DNA of 64,000 nt from Actinopolyspora biskrensis (lineage in GTDB: Bacteria; Actinomycetota; Actinomycetes; Mycobacteriales; Pseudonocardiaceae). Under the pieces are notes generated by a model. It was not told where the DNA came from and did no database searches. It saw nothing but the letters and a program-made list of their open reading frames with translations. This document shows, one piece after another, positions 76 to 57,928 of the stretch (the stretch's first letter is position 1; every line of letters begins with the position of its first letter). The stretch is from contig NZ_JACBYW010000003.1 in assembly GCF_013408175.1 (NCBI RefSeq), forward strand, positions 124,001 through 188,000, in the 5' to 3' direction. Made by a program: the position numbers and the translations under genes.

Positions 76-381
76 CGAAGTTCCCCTCTTCTCGTCGAGG
101 TTTTCCGTTCGCGTTGTCGTGGGTGTTCACCGGGCGGGCCCTCCTGGCCCACCAGGCGAACCGAGCCGAGAAGCCCGGCAGGAACTTCCGGCAGAAGGGC
201 TCCGTCCTCCTAAGCGCTTCAGCCTGAGCAGGACGAGGAGATCCGGTGCGTGAGTCGGATGCATTGCCAGGCCGGGCCGCTCGCCGCGTAGGTGGCTACT
301 CAAGAGCGGCCCGACGCAGCAAGGCGCCGACTCACGTGCCGGCTAACCGACCACCTGAGCAATCCGAGCCGCCGCCCCTTC
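76..381. other. Intergenic gap between hydroxypyruvate isomerase and reductase genes
   Basis: This 306-base gap has no convincing gene. It contains pieces that resemble intergenic repeats found elsewhere in the window: a minus-oriented fragment near 286-300 (CGTAGGTGGCTAC) and a plus-oriented fragment at 341-374. The gap suggests that the reductase may have its own promoter rather than being read only from the isomerase gene, but no clear promoter was recognised. Confidence 0.45.
341..374 (+). repeat. Fragment of dispersed intergenic repeat (3' end)
   Basis: The stretch matches the 3' end of the larger repeat at 21855-22010. Both carry the string ACCACC[CT]GAGCAA followed by a CCGA[AG]CCGCCG block, with only a few differences over about 28 bases. 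The hairpin part of the repeat is absent here, so this looks like a truncated copy. See also 7938-8040, 32824-32955 and 54335-54462. Confidence 0.5.
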
Positions 382-4136: not shown

Positions 4137-5633
4137 ATGCCCCTGTTCATCAGTAGGCGCAATCGCGGAACGCGAAACGGAAGAACCGATTCCCCCCACC
4201 CGGTGGACGAGGTACTACCGCCGGGCAAGCTGTTCGCCTACGGTGTGCAGCACATCGCCGCGATGTACGCGGGCGTGGTAGCACCCCCACTCATCATCGG
4301 ACAAGCGCTCGGGCTCAGTCCGCTCAACATGACGCTGCTGATCGGCGCCAGCCTGTTGACCGCCGGGCTGGCGACACTGTTGCAGTCGATCGGTGTATGG
4401 CGCATCGGCGCCAGGATGCCCTTCGTCAACGGCGTCACCTTCGCGTCCGTGGCTCCGATCCTGGCCATCGTCACACAGCACGACAAACAACAAGCACTGT
4501 CCATTGTGTACGGTTCGGTGCTGATAGCCGGTATTCTGGCCTTTCTGGCAGCTCCCTACTTCTCCCGGATCGTGCGGTTCTTCCCGCCGCTGGTCAACGG
4601 AACCGTGATCACGCTGATCGGGTTGTCGCTGTTCCCGGTGGCAGCCGACTGGATAGCCGGTCAGGATCCGGAAGCGGCCAACTACGCCTCCCCGCTGCGC
4701 ATCGGACTCGGCGCGGGGACCTTTCTGCTGGTGCTGGTGCTGAACCGGGTGCTGACAGGCTTCCTGAACCGGATAGCGATACTGATCGGCCTGGTCGTGG
4801 GCACACTCGTCGCCTGGCCGCTGGGAATGGTGAACACCAGCACGTTCGAACGCGCCCCGGTCTTCGACGTGCCGATGCCGTTCGAGATGGCCTCTCCGGT
4901 CTTCAGCCTCACGGCCACGATCTCCATCTGCATCGTGATGCTCGTGGCCATGATGGAGAGCACCGCCGACATGATCGCGCTGGGCGAGATCGTCGACCGC
5001 CCGGTCGGGGAGAAGACCATCGCGGCCGGGTTGCGCGCCGACGGAGCGGGCAGCGCGCTCAGCGCGGTGTTCGGTGGTTTCACCTGCAGCGCGTTCGCGC
5101 AGAACGTCGGACTGGTCGCGCTGACCAGGGTCAAGAGCCGTTTCGTCGTGGCCGCGGCAGGCGGAGTGCTGATCCTGATGGGGCTCTTCCCGATCGTGGG
5201 GGGAGTGGTCTCGCTGGTGCCCAAGCCCGTGCTGGGCGGTGCCGCGCTGGTGCTGTTCGGCTCGGTGGCGGCCAGCGGCGTGCGCACCCTGGGCAAGGCG
5301 AACCTGGGTGATCCGCTGAACGCGCTGGTGGTCGCGGGCGCGTTCGGCGTGGGGATGATCCCGATCATCTCCCCGGAGTTCTACGAGCACTTCCCCGCCG
5401 CGCTGCGCACCGTGCTGGACTCCGGCATCAGCACCGGTTGCCTGATCGCGGTGTCCTTGAACCTGCTGTTCAACGGAACCCGGCCGACGGGAGGGGAGCA
5501 GGACCAACCTCCCGAGGACGACGCCCCGCCCGCCGCTCGCGAAGCGGTGGACACGGACGACTCCCGGGCGGAGTCCGTGCCCACCCCCCGCCCCAACGAC
5601 GTGCGCAGCGAAGCCGAACCGACCGGCTACTGA
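4137..5633 (+). CDS. NCS2-family nucleobase (urate/xanthine) permease
   Basis: A 498-residue integral membrane transporter of the nucleobase-cation symporter-2 family. It has about 12-14 hydrophobic segments between residues ~25 and ~445. These include the QHIAAMYAGVVAPPLIIGQALG motif typical of UraA/UapA/PucJ-PucK transporters, GARMPFVNGVTF, a central TADMIALGEIV segment with the substrate-contacting Glu, and a following GFTCSAFAQNVGLVALT loop. Its C-terminal ~50 residues are a charged cytoplasmic tail. Next to uricase genes the likely substrate is urate or xanthine. The start has CAGGAG 8 bases upstream. It is separated from the uricase by a terminator, so it is a separate transcription unit. 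Confidence 0.9.
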   Translation: MPLFISRRNRGTRNGRTDSPHPVDEVLPPGKLFAYGVQHIAAMYAGVVAPPLIIGQALGLSPLNMTLLIGASLLTAGLATLLQSIGVWRIGARMPFVNGVTFASVAPILAIVTQHDKQQALSIVYGSVLIAGILAFLAAPYFSRIVRFFPPLVNGTVITLIGLSLFPVAADWIAGQDPEAANYASPLRIGLGAGTFLLVLVLNRVLTGFLNRIAILIGLVVGTLVAWPLGMVNTSTFERAPVFDVPMPFEMASPVFSLTATISICIVMLVAMMESTADMIALGEIVDRPVGEKTIAAGLRADGAGSALSAVFGGFTCSAFAQNVGLVALTRVKSRFVVAAAGGVLILMGLFPIVGGVVSLVPKPVLGGAALVLFGSVAASGVRTLGKANLGDPLNALVVAGAFGVGMIPIISPEFYEHFPAALRTVLDSGISTGCLIAVSLNLLFNGTRPTGGEQDQPPEDDAPPAAREAVDTDDSRAESVPTPRPNDVRSEAEPTGY

Positions 5634-5748
5634 AGTTTCCCGCTCGGTTCGCGTGACGGTGCGGGTTCCCCGAGCCGGGCAGCGGCACCGCGCAGCGAAA
5701 CCGAGCCGGCAGGAAGGTCTGCACAGCACTCGCGGAGCACTTCCCGCA

Positions 5749-5776
5749 CGGGCCCGGTCGATGACGACCGGGCCCG
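5749..5776 (+). terminator. Rho-independent terminator after the permease
   Basis: CGGGCCCGGTCG (5749-5760) and CGACCGGGCCCG (5765-5776) form a perfect 12-base-pair stem with an ATGA loop, followed by CTTTCGC. It lies 115 bases downstream of the permease stop and ends that transcript. Confidence 0.8.
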
Positions 5777-6024
5777 CTTTCGCGGGCACTCGCCCCTTCG
5801 GCCCATTCCGCGAAGTCCGGGCGACCGAGAGCGCTCGACCGAACGTCCGAGAAATCGGACTATTTTCGGACACTCACTTGTCCGTTCCGCTCGATTCCGG
5901 GAAAAATCCTCTTCGTCGGCCGTCGAACCGAAAATCGTCCACTTTCGAACATCCACTGGACCGCGCGACTCTCCCGGAAAACCGCTCTCGGCGAGGTAGC
6001 CGGTGCCAGTTCGCGGAGTGACAC
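5777..6024. other. Leader region upstream of amidase, with small hairpin
   Basis: The gap ahead of the amidase gene is comparatively AT-rich. It contains GTCCGA-GAAA-TCGGAC (5845-5860), a perfect six-base stem closed by a GAAA tetraloop, followed by a third CGGAC copy and then TTGTCCG. I checked it for a c-di-AMP (ydaO) riboswitch, which controls wall hydrolases in many actinomycetes, and did not see its conserved core. No gene is visible. Confidence 0.4.
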
Positions 6025-7107
6025 ATGTCGGATTCGTCCCGTGAATCAGCGCCACGTTCAACGACCGGCCCGAACAGACGGAGCCTGCTCGGAGCAGCCC
6101 TGGGCGGGTGCGCCGGACTGCTGGTCCTCGACCTGAGAACGGCGGCCGCGGCCGCGATGCCGCGGAGCTCGACGATCGCGGACACCGGGGCGTGGGGGGC
6201 CAGGGCTCCGAAGGCGACGATCGACGTGCTCGGACACGCCCCGTCCAAGATCGTCGTCCACCACACCGCCACCCCCAACAGCACCGACTACTCCCGGGCG
6301 CACGCCTTCGCGCTGGCGCGGTCCGTTCAGGACCACCACATGGACAACAACGGCTGGATCGACACCGGCCAGCACTTCACGATCAGCCGCGGCGGGTACG
6401 CGACGGAGGGCAGGCACCGCAGCCTGGCGGCGGTGCGGGACGGCTCGCGGCACGTGGTCGGGGCGCACACCGCCGGGCAGAACCGGCTGGCCGTCGGCAT
6501 CGAGAACGAGGGCACCTACAACAGCGTCGACCCGAGGGACACGCAGTACACGAGGCTGGTCGAGCTGTGCGCGCGGCTGTGCCGCCGGTACGGCATCGAG
6601 CCCCACGAGATCTACGGTCACCGGGACTTCAACGCCACCGACTGCCCCGGCGACCGGCTCCACGCCCTGTTGGGGCAGCTGCGCTCGGACGTGGCGGCCG
6701 AGGTCGGCGGGGACCCGACCGGCGTGAGCTGGCCGCTGCTGCGGCCCGATGACGAGGGCGAAGGGGTACGAATCCTGCAGTACCTGCTCAACGAGCACGG
6801 CGCGTCCCTGACCGCCGACGGGATCTACGGCCTCGCCACCGAGAGCGCGGTGGGCGACTTCCAGCGCTCCACCGGCGCCATCGTGGACGGTCTGGCGGGC
6901 AACCAGACCTGGAACCAGGCCGTCCGCGAGCGCGGCAGCGGCGACCGCGGTCCGGCCGTGCGAGCGGTGCAGCACCGACTCGGCACCACTGTGGACGGGA
7001 TCTTCGGGCCGAACACCGAAACGGTGGTGCGCTCGTTCCAGTCCGCCAGCGGAATCTCCTCCGACGGAGTCGTGCGGGTCCGCACCTGGCAGGCACTCGT
7101 CGGTTGA
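6025..7107 (+). CDS. Secreted N-acetylmuramoyl-L-alanine amidase (PGRP domain) with two peptidoglycan-binding repeats
   Basis: A 360-residue exported protein. The N terminus has an NRRSLLGAALGG twin-arginine-like signal (residues 18-19 RR) followed by a hydrophobic run to about residue 45. Residues ~50-230 are a PGRP/amidase_2 domain: IVVHHTATPN supplies the first zinc His pair near residues 79-80, HMDNNGWIDTGQHF the substrate face and GHRDFNATDCPGD the late zinc/catalytic ligands. Two peptidoglycan-binding_1 repeats follow (about 240-300 and 305-358), each ending in DG..G..T..A...FQ. It should cleave stem peptides from muramic acid outside the membrane. ATG 6025 follows CGGAG. The next gene encodes another wall enzyme. 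Confidence 0.88.
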   Translation: MSDSSRESAPRSTTGPNRRSLLGAALGGCAGLLVLDLRTAAAAAMPRSSTIADTGAWGARAPKATIDVLGHAPSKIVVHHTATPNSTDYSRAHAFALARSVQDHHMDNNGWIDTGQHFTISRGGYATEGRHRSLAAVRDGSRHVVGAHTAGQNRLAVGIENEGTYNSVDPRDTQYTRLVELCARLCRRYGIEPHEIYGHRDFNATDCPGDRLHALLGQLRSDVAAEVGGDPTGVSWPLLRPDDEGEGVRILQYLLNEHGASLTADGIYGLATESAVGDFQRSTGAIVDGLAGNQTWNQAVRERGSGDRGPAVRAVQHRLGTTVDGIFGPNTETVVRSFQSASGISSDGVVRVRTWQALVG

Positions 7108-7168: not shown

Positions 7169-7918
7169 ATGAGAGCGAGACGAAGAGGACGCGGGGCGGT
7201 GGGTCTGCTCGGCGCGTTCGCCCTGAGCCTCGGCCTGGTGAGCGGTGCGAGCGTGCTCGCCCCGGCACCCGCCGCCGCGGACTCCTGCTACACCTGGGGA
7301 CAGACTCTGTCCCAGGGCGACAGCGGTAGCGACGTGCGCGAGCTGCAGGTCCGCGTGGCCGGCTGGGCCGCCTCCGGCGACCCGGTGAACATCGACGGTG
7401 CCTACGGTCCGGAAACCGCGAACGCGGTGGAGCGGTTCCAGCGTGGCTACGGCCTGTCGGTGGACGGCGTGGCGGGCCCGGAGACCTACGGTCAGATCTA
7501 CGACCTGCAGGACGCCGACTGCACCCCGGCGCACTTCGCGTTCTCCGAGTTCACCTCCAACGACGGCAGCGGATTCTCCGGAGGGAACACCAGCACCTCC
7601 AACGTGCGCACCAACGTGCTGCGCAACATGTGGAAGCTGGAAGCACTGCGGCACAAGCTGGGCGACCGGCCGCTCTACGTCAGCTCCGGCTTCCGCAGCG
7701 TCTCGCACAACGACGACGTGGGCGGCGCGCCGAACAGCAAGCACACCTACGGCACCGGGGTCGACCTGACCGGTGCTCCCTCGCTGTGCGACCTGGCCCG
7801 CGAGGCCAGGAGCTCCGGCTTCAACGGCATCATCGGCCCCGGGGCGTCCGGGCACAACGACCACACGCACCTGGACACCCGCTCGGGCCGGTACTGGAAC
7901 GCGCCGAACTGCTTCTGA
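7169..7918 (+). CDS. Secreted zinc D-Ala-D-Ala carboxypeptidase-like protein (peptidoglycan-binding + M15)
   Basis: A 249-residue exported protein. Residues 1-38 are a Sec signal peptide (RARRRGRG, hydrophobic core, APAAADS). Residues ~45-105 are a peptidoglycan-binding_1 domain (VRELQVRV...DGAYGPETANAVERFQ). The C-terminal ~125 residues are an M15 zinc peptidase: the SSGFRSVSHNDDVGG segment, SKHTYGTGVDLTG with His and Asp ligands, and HNDHTHLDTRSGRYW with the final His. This order matches the Streptomyces albus G DD-carboxypeptidase type, which trims peptidoglycan stem peptides. A very strong TAAGGAGG ribosome site precedes ATG 7169. The next gene on this strand is unrelated. Confidence 0.87.
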   Translation: MRARRRGRGAVGLLGAFALSLGLVSGASVLAPAPAAADSCYTWGQTLSQGDSGSDVRELQVRVAGWAASGDPVNIDGAYGPETANAVERFQRGYGLSVDGVAGPETYGQIYDLQDADCTPAHFAFSEFTSNDGSGFSGGNTSTSNVRTNVLRNMWKLEALRHKLGDRPLYVSSGFRSVSHNDDVGGAPNSKHTYGTGVDLTGAPSLCDLAREARSSGFNGIIGPGASGHNDHTHLDTRSGRYWNAPNCF

Positions 7919-7937: not shown

Positions 7938-8040
7938 GGCCTGCGTAGGTGGTTACGTGGCGGAACCTCTCGCGGGCCCTCGCTGTGGGAGGTCCGACAC
8001 CGGGTAGCCGCGAAAGCACTTCGAGACGGCCGTGTCGCCC
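7938..8040 (-). repeat. Dispersed intergenic repeat, minus-oriented copy
   Basis: Read on the minus strand it contains GCTACCCGGTGTCGG, then AGCGAGGGCCCGCGAG, then GGTTCCGCCACGTAACCACC. The same blocks in the same order occur at 21855-22010, 32824-32955 and 54335-54462 on the plus strand. The 5' arm of the hairpin is less conserved in this copy. It sits between the carboxypeptidase gene and the DUF3995 gene. Confidence 0.65.
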
Positions 8041-8088
8041 GCTGCGGCACGGTCGTCGCTTCGTCGAGCAACCGATAGTGTTCGCTCC

Positions 8089-21678: not shown

Positions 21679-21854
21679 GGGCTGCTCCTTCCGAGATGAC
21701 TTCGGGCGAGTTGGCCGCTTGGACGGGCCATCGGACAAGTTGACGGAGTCGCTCTCAGCCACCTGAGCAGTCGGCACCGCCGCGGGTTCCGCTCATCAGA
21801 ACCCGCTGAGCAAATCGAGTCTCCGGAAGCCCTCCACTCCAACGCAAGCGCTCT

Positions 21855-22010
21855 GAGCCTACGCAGTCGGCACCGCCGGGGGTTCTCAGTCCCGGGTCTC
21901 GCGAGGAAGGCCCGACGTCGTGTAGAGCGCTACCCGATGTCGGGCCTCCCCGCAGCGAGACCCCGACTGAGGTTCCCCCACGGAACCACCCGAGCAAGCC
22001 GAACCGCCGA
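21855..22010 (+). repeat. Dispersed intergenic hairpin repeat (best-preserved copy)
   Basis: It fills most of the 347-base gap between nnr and glmS. Inner stem: AGGCCCGACGTCG (21908-21920) with CGATGTCGGGCCT (21935-21947), one mismatch, enclosing TGTAGAGCGCTACC. Outer stem: AGTCCCGGGTCTCGC (21888-21902) with GCGAGACCCCGACT (21955-21968). The 3' tail (GGTTCCCCCACGGAACCACC...) is shared with copies at 7938, 32824 and 54335. A partial second tail, CAGTCGGCACCGCCG, occurs twice, at about 21769 and 21864. No gene is visible in 21679-22025. Confidence 0.7.
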
Positions 22011-22025
22011 CTCTCCAAAAACGGG

Positions 22026-23885
22026 TCACTCCACGGTCACCGATTTGGCGAGGTTGCGGGGCTTGTCCACGTCGTAACCGCGGTTGCGCGCCACCTCGGC
22101 CGCCAGCACCTGCAGCGGAACCGCCGAAACCAGCGGTTGCAGCAGCGTGGGCACGGCGGGCACCTCGATGATCTCGTCGGCGAACGGGCGCACCACGTCG
22201 TCGCCCTCCTCGGCGATGACGATGGTGTGCGCGCCACGCGCCTGGATCTCGCGGATGTTGGAGACGAGCTTGGCGTGCAGCTGTGAATTCCCCTTGTTCG
22301 AGGGCATGTTCACCACCACGGGGAGACCGTCCTCGATCAGCGCGATCGGTCCGTGCTTGAGCTCGCCCGCCGCGAACCCCTCCGCGTGCATGTAGGCGAG
22401 TTCCTTGAGCTTGAGCGCGCCCTCCAGAGCCACCGGGTAGCCCACGTGCCTGCCGAGGAACAGCACCGCCTTCGCCTCGGAGAACCGCTCGGCCAGCTCG
22501 CGCGTCTGCTCCACGGTCGACAGGGCGGAACGCACCGCCTCCGGCATGGCCGCCAACTCCTCGAACTCGCGCTCGAGCTCCTCGGGGTACTTGGTGCCCC
22601 GGGCCTGGGCCAGCGCCAACCCCACCAGGTAGTTGGCCGCGATCTGGGCGAGGAACGTCTTGGTCGCCGCCACACCGATCTCCGGGCCCGCGTGGGTGTA
22701 GAGCACGGCGTCCGACTCGCGCGGAATCTGCGAACCGTTGGTGTTGCTGATGGCGAGCACCCTGGCGTGCTGGGTGCGCGCGTGACGAACCGCCTCGAGG
22801 GTGTCGGCCGTCTCCCCCGACTGGGAGATCGCCACGACCAGCGTGTCCCGCCCGAGCACCGGGTCGCGGTAGCGGAACTCGCTGGCCAGTTCGACCTCGA
22901 CGGGTATCCGGCACCAGTGCTCGATCGCGTACTTGGCGAGCAGCCCCGCGTGGTAGGCGGTTCCGCAGGCCACGACGAACACCTTTCCGATGTCCCTGAG
23001 GTCCTGTTCGCTGAGCCGCTGCTCGTCGAGGACCACCCCGTCGGAGAAGTGGCCGCGCAGCGTGTTGGCCAGCGCCTCCGGCTGCTCCTCGATCTCCTTG
23101 AGCATGAAGTAGTCGTGGCCGCCCTTCTCCGCCGCGGACAGGTCCCAGTCCACGGTGAAGGGCTTGGTCTCCACTTCCGCGCCGGCGAAGTCGGTGACCC
23201 GGTAGCCGTCCCTCGTTATGGCGACCACCTGGTCCTGACCGAGCTCGACCGCGTCCCTGGTGTGCTCGATGAAGGCGGCCACGTCCGAAGCCACGAAGGT
23301 CTCACCGTCACCGACCCCCACCACCAGCGGGGAGGAGCGCCGGGCCGCGGCGATCCGCTCGGGTTCGGCGGCGTGCGTGACCACCAGGGTGAACGCACCG
23401 GTCAGGCGGTCGGCGATCTTTCCGAGGGTCGCAGGGAGGTCACCGGCGGTCTCTCCCTCCTCGTAGGCTCGCGCGATCAGGTGAGCGACGATCTCACTGT
23501 CCGTGTCGCTGCTCAGCTCGAGCCCATCGGCCTCGAGCTCGGTGCGCAACGCCGCGAAGTTCTCGATGATCCCGTTGTGCACCACCGCGACCCGACCCGA
23601 ACCGTCGCGGTGCGGGTGGGCGTTGCGATCGGTCGGTGCCCCGTGCGTGGCCCAACGCGTGTGCCCCATACCACCGGTGCCCGCGAAGTGTTCGCGCTCG
23701 GAGGCGGCGAGCCGTTCTTCCAGGTTCGACAGCGCTCCCGCGGAACGCTCGACCGCCAACGAGCCCGAGCCGTTCAGCAGGGCGATGCCCGCGGAGTCGT
23801 AGCCGCGGTACTCCAGTCGCCGCAACCCTTGAATCACCACGTCAAGAGCAGGGCGATGTCCTAGGTAACCCACAATGCCGCACAC
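22026..23885 (-). CDS. glmS: Glutamine-fructose-6-phosphate aminotransferase (isomerizing)
   Basis: 619 residues. It makes glucosamine-6-phosphate from fructose-6-phosphate and glutamine, the first step to UDP-GlcNAc. The GTG start at 23885 is chosen so that Cys becomes residue 2, the N-terminal nucleophile (CGIVGYLGHRPA). The glutaminase domain (1-~240) shows RRLEYRGYDSAG, GMGHTRWATHG and HPHRDGSGRVAVVHNGII. Two SIS domains follow (VVACGTAYHAGL; VELASEFRYRDP; ISQSGETADTL; LGRHVGYPVALEGALKLKEL), ending in the YDVDKPRNLAKSVTVE tail. Its wall precursor role matches glmM 6 kb away. A separate promoter is likely; the gap downstream holds a repeat. Confidence 0.96.
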   Translation of the reverse strand: MCGIVGYLGHRPALDVVIQGLRRLEYRGYDSAGIALLNGSGSLAVERSAGALSNLEERLAASEREHFAGTGGMGHTRWATHGAPTDRNAHPHRDGSGRVAVVHNGIIENFAALRTELEADGLELSSDTDSEIVAHLIARAYEEGETAGDLPATLGKIADRLTGAFTLVVTHAAEPERIAAARRSSPLVVGVGDGETFVASDVAAFIEHTRDAVELGQDQVVAITRDGYRVTDFAGAEVETKPFTVDWDLSAAEKGGHDYFMLKEIEEQPEALANTLRGHFSDGVVLDEQRLSEQDLRDIGKVFVVACGTAYHAGLLAKYAIEHWCRIPVEVELASEFRYRDPVLGRDTLVVAISQSGETADTLEAVRHARTQHARVLAISNTNGSQIPRESDAVLYTHAGPEIGVAATKTFLAQIAANYLVGLALAQARGTKYPEELEREFEELAAMPEAVRSALSTVEQTRELAERFSEAKAVLFLGRHVGYPVALEGALKLKELAYMHAEGFAAGELKHGPIALIEDGLPVVVNMPSNKGNSQLHAKLVSNIREIQARGAHTIVIAEEGDDVVRPFADEIIEVPAVPTLLQPLVSAVPLQVLAAEVARNRGYDVDKPRNLAKSVTVE

Positions 23886-29370: not shown

Positions 29371-29610
29371 GACCGAGCGACACCTCCGCCGGAGCGGGGT
29401 CAGCGAAAACGACTCGCTTCCCACCGAGGTTTTCTGTTCGCCTCTGACGAGGCGCTCACTTGGCGGGGCTCCCACGGGCTCTCGTCCCGGTTGGCACGTC
29501 CTCGGGCAGCCACTCGGGAGCGTCCTCGCGAGAGCACGACGCGGGAGAACCCACGACGCCAACCACGCCGAAGCACCACATCAATCGTCAACACGACAGA
29601 AGAGCATCAG

Positions 29611-32681: not shown

Positions 32682-32718
32682 CGTGCCCCCTGGATCCCGT
32701 TGCGGTCCAGGGGGCACG
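32682..32718 (-). terminator. Strong terminator hairpin downstream of esx genes
   Basis: CGTGCCCCCTGGA (32682-32694) and TCCAGGGGGCACG (32706-32718) form a perfect 13-base-pair stem with an 11-base loop. It should stop transcripts coming leftward from the esx pair before rplM. Confidence 0.75.
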
Positions 32719-32823
32719 CGAGGCTCCGGGGAGCTCACAGAGCTCTCCCGGCCGAGTTGTCGGTGGTCGGGGCCTTTCCCTCGGCGCGGCAGCGCCGAAA
32801 CGACGCTTGCCGGACCGAGTGAC

Positions 32824-53647: not shown

Positions 53648-54304
53648 GTGACCGCCCAGCACCACGGCCGACACTCGCCGACACACCGCACGCCCGGCAG
53701 AACCACCCTGGCCGAGTACCGACGGTTCCTCCGCACCGCGCTGCGCAGCCCCGCCACCGTAGGAGCAGCCACCCCCACCTCGCAGGCCGTGAGCAGGACC
53801 GTGGCTCAAGTCGTCCCCCGCACGGGCTCTCCCGTGGTGGTCGAGCTGGGCCCGGGGACGGGGTCGCTCAGCGGTGCGATTCACCACCGTCTCCCGGAGT
53901 CGGGCCGACACGTCGGAATCGAGCTCGACGAAGGGCTCGTACGGCACCTGCGCGCCAATTACCCCCGGATGGAAACCATCCACGCCGACGCGCGCGACCT
54001 GCGCGGGGTGCTGGACAGGCTCGGAGTCGGAGCGGTCGACGTGATCGTCACCAGCATCCCCTGGGCGCTGCTGCCGGAAGACGCTCAGGAGGACATCCTG
54101 CGGCAGTGTCACGAGGCCCTGACCCCCGCAGGCGTCTTCACGGCCCTCACCTACCTGCCGATGCAGCACACCCCGACGGGACGTCGATTCGGCACCCGGC
54201 TGCACTCCGGATTCGACGAGGTGCTCATCCACGCCACCTGGCGCAACCTGCCCCCGATCCTGCACTACACCTGCAGACGCCCGCTGCAGGCGACCGAGCA
54301 GTAA
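53648..54304 (+). CDS. SAM-dependent methyltransferase (phospholipid N-methyltransferase/rRNA dimethylase-like)
   Basis: 218 residues with a class I methyltransferase core: VVVELGPGTGSLSGAI is motif I, HVGIELDEGLVRHLR motif II, HADARDLRGVL motif III, and VTSIPWALLPEDAQEDIL motif IV, where a SIPW replaces the NIPY/NLPY of KsgA/Erm dimethylases. This resembles bacterial phosphatidylethanolamine N-methyltransferases (PmtA-type) more than rRNA enzymes. Substrate unknown. GTG 53648 is chosen for GAGGAG just upstream. It is inserted in opposite orientation between map and infA, which are usually adjacent or close on one strand, so it may be a lineage-specific acquisition. Confidence 0.75.
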   Translation: MTAQHHGRHSPTHRTPGRTTLAEYRRFLRTALRSPATVGAATPTSQAVSRTVAQVVPRTGSPVVVELGPGTGSLSGAIHHRLPESGRHVGIELDEGLVRHLRANYPRMETIHADARDLRGVLDRLGVGAVDVIVTSIPWALLPEDAQEDILRQCHEALTPAGVFTALTYLPMQHTPTGRRFGTRLHSGFDEVLIHATWRNLPPILHYTCRRPLQATEQ

Positions 54305-54334
54305 CCGGAACTCTTCTCCGGTTCCGCCCGCACC

Positions 54335-54469: not shown

Positions 54470-55258
54470 TCAGTCAGCGGCGGTGAGCACCCAGGGACCG
54501 TCCTCCGTGATCGCCACCGTGTGCTCCCAGTGCGCGGCACGCGAACCGTCCACCGTCACCACGGTCCACTCGTCGTCCATCTCCTCCGTGTCGGGCGGGC
54601 CGAGCGTGAGCATGGGCTCGACGGCCAACGCCATGCCCGCCCGGAGCTTCGGCCCCTTCCCCGGCTTGCCCAGGTTCGGCAGGAAGGGCTCCATGTGCAT
54701 CCGGGTACCGATCCCGTGGCCGCCGTACTCGGCGATGATCCCGTAGTCGATCCCGTCCGAGGAAGCGGCTGCCCGCGCCGCCGACTCCACCGCGTGCGAG
54801 ATGTCGGTCAACCGGTTGCCCTCGGCCACCTTGTTTATGCCCGCCCACATGGCACGCTCGGTTGCCGCGGACAGCGCCCGGTCGCGTTCACCGACCGAAC
54901 CGACCATGATCGTCACGGCCGAGTCGCCGTGCCAACCGTCCAGGATCGCCCCGCAGTCCACCGAGATCAGGTCGCCGTCCGCCAGCACCTCCTTCTCGGA
55001 GGGGATGCCGTGCACGATCTTCTCGTTGATCGAGGCGCAGATCGAGCCGGGGAAACCGTGGTAGCCCTTGAAGGAGGGGATCGCACCCGCGTCGCGGATC
55101 ACGCTCTCGGCGACGGAATCGAGTTCGGCGGTGCTGACACCGGGCTTGGCCCGCTCCGTCACAGCCGAGAGGGCCCGCGCGACGAGGAGCCCCGAGGCGC
55201 GCATCGCCTCGATCTCACCGCTGCTCTTGAGTTCGATTCCCTTACCTCGACGCAACAT
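54470..55258 (-). CDS. map: Methionine aminopeptidase, type I
   Basis: 262 residues. It removes initiator Met from nascent proteins. The pita-bread fold ligands are visible: [17 protein letters not shown] with the two Asp ligands, [14 protein letters not shown] with the His, MALAVEPML with Glu and [12 protein letters not shown] with the last Glu. ATG 55258 has GGGAGGGGG directly upstream. It belongs to the secY-adk-map series of the spc region and ends next to a repeat. Confidence 0.95.
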
Positions 55259-57623: not shown

Positions 57624-57928
57624 GCAGACCTCCTGTGCGCGAGCCGGTAGTCACCGGCCGGTGTCGGTGGCCGACTCACGAGTCGCCCACGGCTGGATTC
57701 CGTCAGCAGTGCCGTCTAACACGGAACTGCCGAACGGACTCTAACAGCATTCGCCCGATCTTTCGTAGCCACCTACACACAGCGGCGACAAACCGACAAC
57801 CGTCCGATACCGACAGTGTTCACCGAGTCCGCGACCGACGAGCCCGCCGGAGCGGCACGAGCGGAGGCGGGAGCGTTCCTCTCCCCTCCCCGCACCGGCC
57901 GCGGGAATTCGACCGTGTGAACACGAAA

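Follow-up and report, generated by a model that had tools for sequence, protein, structure and literature searches.

Between its genes, the soil bacterium Actinopolyspora biskrensis carries a long hairpin that recurs with the same blocks in the same order. What is this repeat, how does it stand relative to the genes around it, and what may keep it there? The window, the whole stretch of 64,000 nucleotides analysed here (positions 124,001 to 188,000 of contig NZ_JACBYW010000003.1, C3 below), had previously been read from its letters and open reading frames alone. That sequence-only reading reported at least four copies and several fragments, all between genes, took the kept pairing of variable arms as a sign of selection on the structure, and considered a REP-like palindrome family, a MITE or a structured RNA. 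It missed what is the main regularity of the family, namely its orientation and its distance from the stop codon of a neighbouring gene.

Copies in the window and anatomy of the element

The features of the window are listed below, with scores from covariance model R1.

21868-21996, plus: full copy (strand of R1; the sense reading is minus), 130.5 bits
32815-32943, plus: full copy, 124.2 bits
54328-54456, plus: full copy, 96.1 bits
7942-8052, minus: 5'-truncated copy, part of the 5' arm absent, 54.0 bits
29445-29564, minus: diverged copy, 46.5 bits, E 6.9e-9
about 21765-21821, plus: core-less short variant, the usual flanking blocks around a small hairpin GCGGGTTC-CGCTCATCA-GAACCCGC, read directly
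233-361, plus: hairpin of a second family, which has the apical GTAGGTGGCTAC (288-299) and nothing else in common with the repeat

The four main copies described before are real: all were matched by R1 (54.0-130.5 bits), a model built from 30 copies with three of these four included, and their blocks follow the order given for them. The stretch at 29440-29560, formerly put down as a "perhaps", is matched by the model as well. The fragments fared differently. Those near 290 and at 341-374 belong to the second hairpin family and have only the apical motif GTAGGNNGCTAC in common with the repeat, and the one at 57767 is another hairpin carrying the apical GTAGGNNGCTAC (C3 181765, window 57765). 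The fragment at 21757 is a shortened variant that has the same flanking blocks and from which the core is absent.

In the model, the copy at 21868-21996 ends 30 nt from the stop codon (22026-22028) of a glmS-like gene on the minus strand, with SIS and GATase domains. The copy at 32815 lies behind the stop codon (32971) of a WXG100 gene (minus) and has a terminator-like hairpin, CTCGGCGC..GCGCCGAA (32780-32799), on its far side. The copy at 54328 is flanked by a methyltransferase gene (plus, ending at 54304) and a Peptidase_M24 gene (minus, stop at 54470), and the truncated copy at 7942-8052 comes after a peptidase M15 gene (plus, stop at 7918). The fold z-score was -6.8 for the 21855 copy and weaker for the 32815 copy (-2.4) and the 54325 copy (-1.8).

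The element is mosaic in build. At its centre stands a hairpin of about 110 nt, in which internal-loop bases and the bases of the apex are conserved but the arms change freely. When it is read in the sense of the neighbouring gene, which is the reverse complement of the strand used previously, a short run of free bases separates the stop codon from a start block, either GAGAGTCGGCGGCTCGGTT or the CYGATGTTTTCCGCTC of a second type. After the start block come TGCTCGGGTGGTTGCGTGGCGGAACC, the long hairpin of variable arms with the apex GTAG..CTAC, the return arm and GAACCCGCGGCGGTGCCG. GTAG and CTAC pair with each other at the apex as helix 4. Some copies have, after GAACCCGCGGCGGTGCCG, a short second hairpin of the terminator type. 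A perfect stem of at least 6 bp was found after the core in 61 of 122 A. biskrensis copies, where a control window gave 23 of 122 and shuffled sequences 15%, and a stem of at least 7 bp in 40 of 122, compared to 8 in the control window. In other genomes, with six copies from each, the second stem was seen in five copies of G014 (control 2), four of G021 (1), four of G023 (2) and three of G034 (0); it was weak in G022 (8/30 vs 6/30 in the control) and G035 (3/6 vs 3/6). The modules are shuffled among copies, and core-less derivatives occur at orthologous sites, including sites in genome G005.

No match at the Rfam gathering score was obtained in the whole window, and the other Rfam comparison of the element returned one snoRNA model and models of animal miRNAs, all scoring well under the cut-off. 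Full-text searches of the open-licence literature found no published description of the element.

Two further hairpins were noticed. The second family has unrelated arms, GCGTGAGTCGG..CCGACTCACG, around the same apical GTAGGNNGCTAC; beyond window 233-361 (plus), copies lie at C3:469607, C6:263433, C4:137283, C4:122417 and C1:310059 of the same genome. Apical GTAGGNNGCTAC motifs number 52 in 1.22 Mb, compared to 31 after shuffling, and 12 of the 13 that fall outside known copies are intergenic. The L13 gene is preceded, at about 32683-32718 of the window, by a hairpin GTGCCCCCTGG..CCAGGGGGCAC that is conserved at the same place in G001, G002, G005, G006, G008 and G009; it has no Rfam match at the gathering score and is perhaps a ribosomal-protein leader.

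Copy number and spread among genomes

The A. biskrensis genome (4.95 Mb, 15 contigs) holds copies well beyond chance, as had been supposed. BLAST with the 32815 copy as query returned 41 matches at E<=1, all but one of which have E values no higher than 5.1e-22. R1 returned at least 150 non-overlapping matches, the worst among those listed having E 2.6e-5, and in all 150 matches listed the 129-position model was spanned from 1 to 129. An exact 24-mer of the repeat occurs in 20 stretches of A. xinjiangensis, A. alba, A. mzabensis and A. righensis and, among the genome contigs searched, only in Actinopolyspora. NCBI places this genus in Actinopolysporaceae; the family of our genome set follows GTDB, in which Actinopolyspora and many other genera stand together in Pseudonocardiaceae.

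In the model search, all ten genomes of the genus had copies, nine with at least 56 each and G006 with 2, as did 6 of 27 other genomes of the family; none were found in 24 genomes from other families of the order. The RNAalifold structure on the first alignment, the basis of R1, had a poor inner structure and was replaced, the new one being used in the cross-genus model R2. With R2, copies were detected in 30 of 120 family genomes and 12 of 46 genera. In a scan of the phylum, the only positive among 296 genomes was A. biskrensis itself, which is a weak negative because 13 candidates per genome were scored. The plasmid and phage collections searched gave zero matches.

Genome G006 (same genus, 4.2 Mb) has hardly any copies of the element, 2 or 3 having been detected. 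Its glmS is 86% identical to that of A. biskrensis, closer than in some species rich in copies, at 83-84%, which makes it a natural contrast for the mover. Since G006 lives with so few copies, the element is dispensable at most sites. The distribution along the chromosome was uneven in G002 (5.24 Mb, dnaA at 1603; 147 matches, of which one overlapping opposite-strand reading was excluded to leave 146): 4 of 146 copies lay in the ter-centred third at 1.48-3.23 Mb (P about 3e-20 against uniform, limits chosen after looking), and 38 of 146 in the ter-centred half (P 6e-9). G022 appears less depleted around ter than G002, and the gap in G002 may reflect accessory DNA. Close inverted or direct pairs resembling BIME doublets were also seen in A. 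biskrensis, at C7:99160/99308, C6:399951/400136 and C5:8822/9000.

Pairing is kept while the arms change

Conservation of the fold was assessed on alignment A3, comprising 64 sequences from seven genera: 22 A. biskrensis copies picked for diversity from the best-scoring ones for which DNA had been fetched, 3 window copies, 12 of the 30 from G022, and 27 of 30 from five further genera (L279, L286 and L287 left out). In A3, 91.0% of 2189 stem cells pair, compared to 75.4% in shuffled alignments, a figure favoured by the structure having been derived from A3 itself; the margin is far above what we would expect a self-derived structure alone to give. Both sides have changed in 25 of 35 pairs, with 304 double-changed cells vs 57-90 in slid controls, and the covariation score was 0.381 vs at most 0.091 in controls. 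Across the 122 A. biskrensis copies, 88% of stem cells pair, compared to 80% in shuffles and 31-46% with slid partners. The earlier statement that the arms vary while pairing is mostly kept is thus borne out, and the fold is kept, whether as DNA or as RNA. Conservation extends to what does not pair: 13 unpaired columns are conserved at 90% or more across genera in A3, and an A.C pair at 82-103 is conserved among the A. biskrensis copies.

A stem selected as RNA is expected to tolerate G-U more than A-C. On A3 the counts were 78 G-U and 84 A-C, and this near equality means that wobble asymmetry does not support selection at the RNA level. In the A. biskrensis copies, G-U stood at 169 vs 93 A-C in the mostly Watson-Crick pairs, and at 217 vs 196 when all 28 pairs are counted, a conserved A.C and a T-G pair among them. 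The claim of selection on the structure is therefore only partly supported: the pairing is kept, but the wobble test reveals no RNA bias, and template-switch repair could yield the same pattern.

Most copies follow stop codons in one orientation

Genes were called with our own codon-model caller, which is not an annotation, on 1.22 Mb fetched around copies, and the 122 copies examined are those of the 150 listed that have 1 kb of fetched DNA on both sides. In one of them the overlap with a called gene exceeds 30 nt, so the claim that all copies lie between genes nearly holds. In 93 of the 122, the neighbour on the sense 5' side is a gene that runs towards the element; the distance between its stop codon and the model end is 9-39 nt for 89 of these 93 and 123-221 nt for the other 4. 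The remaining 29 follow no gene in sense. A sense stop codon within 9-45 nt was found for 89 of 122 copies, compared to an expectation of 17.9 and a maximum of 32 in 2000 trials in which each copy was placed at random within its own gap, its orientation being kept. By eye, the start block begins about 2-16 nt behind the stop codon in most A. biskrensis copies.

Because these stretches had been chosen for their copies, the test was repeated on a contiguous 460 kb of G005, selected for synteny with the copy-rich contig C3 and not copy by copy. After exclusion of four overlapping opposite-strand readings from 32 matches, 25 of the 28 copies used follow a gene in sense, and 24 have the stop codon within 12-39 nt. 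In G022 (genus g14, best 30 copies), 26 of 30 follow a gene in sense and 20 of 30 fall within the range of stop distances. In five further genera, with six copies each, the corresponding numbers were 22 and 21 of 30, and copies obeying the rule numbered five in G014, four in G021, five in G023, five in G034 and two in G035. The stop-codon rule holds in most copies tested of five of the six other genera, G035 being the exception with two of six.

The type of gap agrees with this orientation. Convergent gaps are enriched (49/122 copies vs 99/565 gaps), divergent gaps are depleted (7/122 vs 141/565), and in co-directional gaps 44 copies lie in sense and 22 do not (P 0.009). The element shares one feature with intrinsic terminators, a hairpin or several clustered hairpins no further than about 50 nt from a stop codon. 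Folding is also in excess behind genes that lack a copy (250 of 282 sampled), over roughly the first 50 nt after the stop codon, indicating that the element sits where a terminator sits.

Stop usage was also counted. Genes followed by the element end in TAG more often than genes overall (20/89 vs 90/825, P 0.003; about 25 called genes cut by a segment end, and hence without a stop, were excluded). The possibility that a stop triplet is part of the element or its target was considered and set aside: where no gene ends, a triplet at the usual place was seen in 26 of 52 cases in sense vs 20 of 52 in antisense (P 0.32) and 15 of 52 in an upstream window (P 0.04), which is no clear enrichment. Strand counts in G002 were 46 minus and 19 plus on the right arm, and 51 plus and 30 minus on the left arm. 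A polarity of replication strands was likewise rejected, being explained by gene orientation (in G005, 65% of genes and 18 of 28 copies).

Gain, loss and turnover

The copy at site 32815 is present in A. biskrensis, G005 and G001 and absent in G006, G002, G009 and G008, a pattern most simply explained by gain. The copy at 54328 is also found in G002, G008 and G009, decayed in G005, as a remnant in G001, and was not seen in G006; it is old. Between A. biskrensis and G005, whose glmS are 97% identical, 4 of 16 placeable A. biskrensis copies aligned through, and at 7 of the 16 the gap in G005 is too short for the core. A comparison with G006 for exact junctions was abandoned, the flanks being too diverged.

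Search for the mover

The sequence-only reading had advised looking for a TnpA-REP transposase. The single Y1_Tnp match in A. biskrensis lies at C5:89381-89734, its frame ending about 100 bp from a copy (89074-89202). Next to it, in divergent orientation, lies a tnpB broken into two frames (OrfB_IS605 and TNB domains in one, HTH_OrfB_IS605 in the other), which identifies the Y1_Tnp gene as a tnpA of the IS605 type. The IS605-like element as a whole (C5:89300-91084, L032 about 4301-6085) adjoins a copy, and one of its outer ends reads TTGACGTGC, resembling TTGAC, the target of ISDra2. In a Y1_Tnp search of 61 genomes, the copy-bearing G001, G008, G022, G023 and G035 had no match, so a RAYT is not needed. 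In the Y1_Tnp searches, no RAYT gene with an inverted copy on either side came to light. With five such bearers and a tnpB partner for the A. biskrensis gene, RAYT was dismissed as the mover. Transposases nested between close copy pairs were also sought, and the nine genes from 8 of 27 pairs belong to ordinary cellular families.

Direct repeats of at least 8 nt flanking the same copy were found in 18 of 122 A. biskrensis copies vs 16.5% in mispaired controls, in 9 of 30 G022 copies vs 15.5% (P 0.04), and in 6 of 30 copies of the five genera vs 10.9% (P 0.13), in a test confounded by convergent stop codons and palindromic CTAG. With windows narrowed after looking, P was 0.005 for G021, G023 and G035 together, 0.89 for G014 and G034, and 0.018 for all five. 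At locus L270 of G023, a perfect 11-bp direct repeat, TGAACACCTAG, lies near both outer ends. Terminal repeats of Type I form three pairs, with a core between them in two and TGA on both sides in one; the combination of such repeats with a duplicated TGA target, although attractive by eye, comes down to one element. Neither the terminal repeats nor the target duplications of a MITE were established by these searches.

Discussion

BIMEs are mosaics of REPs with other short motifs, and the present family resembles them in several respects. As described in the parts of the sources that bear on this comparison, REPs fall into GTAG and CGTC super-families, are found chiefly downstream of genes, might function as RNA and often provide TAG stops with their ends (PMC3733652); RAYT genes are flanked by REPs (PMC2817692), and Y1 transposases prefer the lagging strand (PMC6006769). 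Like REPs and BIMEs in that description, our family consists of many extragenic palindromes, mainly behind genes, in convergent and co-directional gaps, with mosaic structure, short motifs, and arms that vary while pairing is kept. The REP-like label proposed before is therefore right as to high copy number and extragenic position behind genes, and fails as to short unit, free tag and RAYT: the central hairpin is about 110 nt whereas a REP unit has 20-40 bp, GTAG and CTAC are apical and paired whereas a REP carries an unpaired GTAG or CGTC tag at one end, and the element has a preferred orientation, a narrow stop-codon distance and no RAYT, and belongs to Actinopolyspora and related genera.

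REPINs, as far as the source text describes them (PMC3116915), share the long hairpin, the many copies and the compensatory changes, but they consist of two inverted units, conserved at the ends and freer in the spacer, and are placed randomly in extragenic space; in our element the loops and apex are conserved, the arms are free, and the copies are anchored to stop codons. Size, tag and mover thus set it apart from REPs, and placement sets it apart from REPINs. Two further systems share its position, according to the relevant passages of the papers. In E. coli, REPs are reported to reduce translation where they lie no more than 15 nt from a stop codon, as 446 of 4,072 do (260 of 496 in an earlier study cited there; PMC12306157); they too are structures close behind the stop codon, but our unit far exceeds them in length and has no sequence relation to them. 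Clusters of hairpins near stop codons, mostly within 50 nt and favoured at high GC, are described as terminators (PMC8355165); these are predicted gene by gene, whereas the element is one dispersed sequence family.

What is the reason for such a placement? We give about even credence to the reading that the element is a REP/BIME-like mosaic hairpin at terminator positions, probably a module for termination or for the message end, its position behind the stop codon and its single orientation suggesting that it helps to end or protect messages, in the way proposed for the shorter REP repeats of other bacteria. In favour of this reading are the positional counts in A. biskrensis, G005, G022 and the five further genera, the enrichment between convergent genes, the excess folding behind genes that lack a copy, the published hairpin-cluster terminators, the second stem and the covariation. 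Against it are the even G-U to A-C counts, the 29 copies that follow no gene in sense and the 4 with a distant stop codon, the two of six in G035, the weak second hairpin in G022 and G035, and the scarcity of the element in G006. A selfish MITE-like non-autonomous element, moved in trans by a transposase that picks DNA behind stop codons, or surviving only there, with the hairpin kept for the enzyme, is a possibility that we hold tentatively. The gain at site 32815, the G005 gaps too short for the core at 7 of 16 placeable copies, the 11-bp repeat at L270 and the over-use of TAG by followed genes are in its favour; the flanking direct repeats are at the control level in A. biskrensis and at P 0.04 and 0.13 elsewhere, Type I repeats amount to three pairs with TGA on both sides in one, and a bare target triplet is not borne out. 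The strict version, in which a RAYT mobilises a REP or REPIN, can draw on the Y1_Tnp gene near a copy on C5, yet the tnpB neighbour marks that gene as part of an IS605-type element, five bearers have no match to Y1_Tnp (PF01797), and the free GTAG or CGTC tag is absent. It is largely contradicted and seems to us highly improbable.

The other two alternatives concern the fold itself. The repeat might act as DNA, as a cruciform or protein site between genes connected with supercoiling or the nucleoid, its strand having meaning by proximity only. The even ratio of G-U to A-C, the preference for convergent gaps and the near absence from the ter-centred third of G002 (4/146, limits set after looking) are consistent with this; a symmetric cruciform, however, needs neither an orientation relative to the gene nor a narrow stop distance, and we regard this reading as unlikely. 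It is also rather improbable that the pairing is kept by template-switch correction of quasi-palindromes instead of selection, the repeats being inert debris. Both the even wobble ratio and the core-less deletion derivatives at orthologous sites would fit, but such correction would erase conserved mismatches and unpaired bases, and the 13 conserved columns and the A.C pair persist, which makes it doubtful as a full account. Moreover, the placement rule holds in the genus and in five of six other genera.

Under the message-end reading, the mechanism might run as follows. About three quarters of the A. biskrensis copies lie in the 3' UTR, in gene sense, and begin a few to about 20 nt behind the stop codon; such copies would be transcribed as the start of the 3' UTR. 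The transcribed hairpin, with or without the second one, could then halt RNA polymerase, protect the end of the message, or both, often between convergent genes, and a copy may be kept where it landed for that reason. A wider and more tentative version is that of a mobile 3'-UTR module, which might spread from gene to gene, insert or survive mainly behind stop codons in sense, and confer the same end structure on each gene, with arms drifting by paired changes and loops held by a partner such as an RNA polymerase factor, an RNase or a transposase.

In the comparison literature, to the extent of the texts cited here, repeat families are mostly proteobacterial and are either tied to RAYTs or without a known mover. 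The present family sits in Actinopolyspora and related genera, and in several bearers it needs no Y1 transposase. Its positional rule is sharp enough for a direct test of function, in sister species that have the same gene with and without the element. The family would also explain some of the 3' intergenic DNA that Actinopolyspora and related genera carry.
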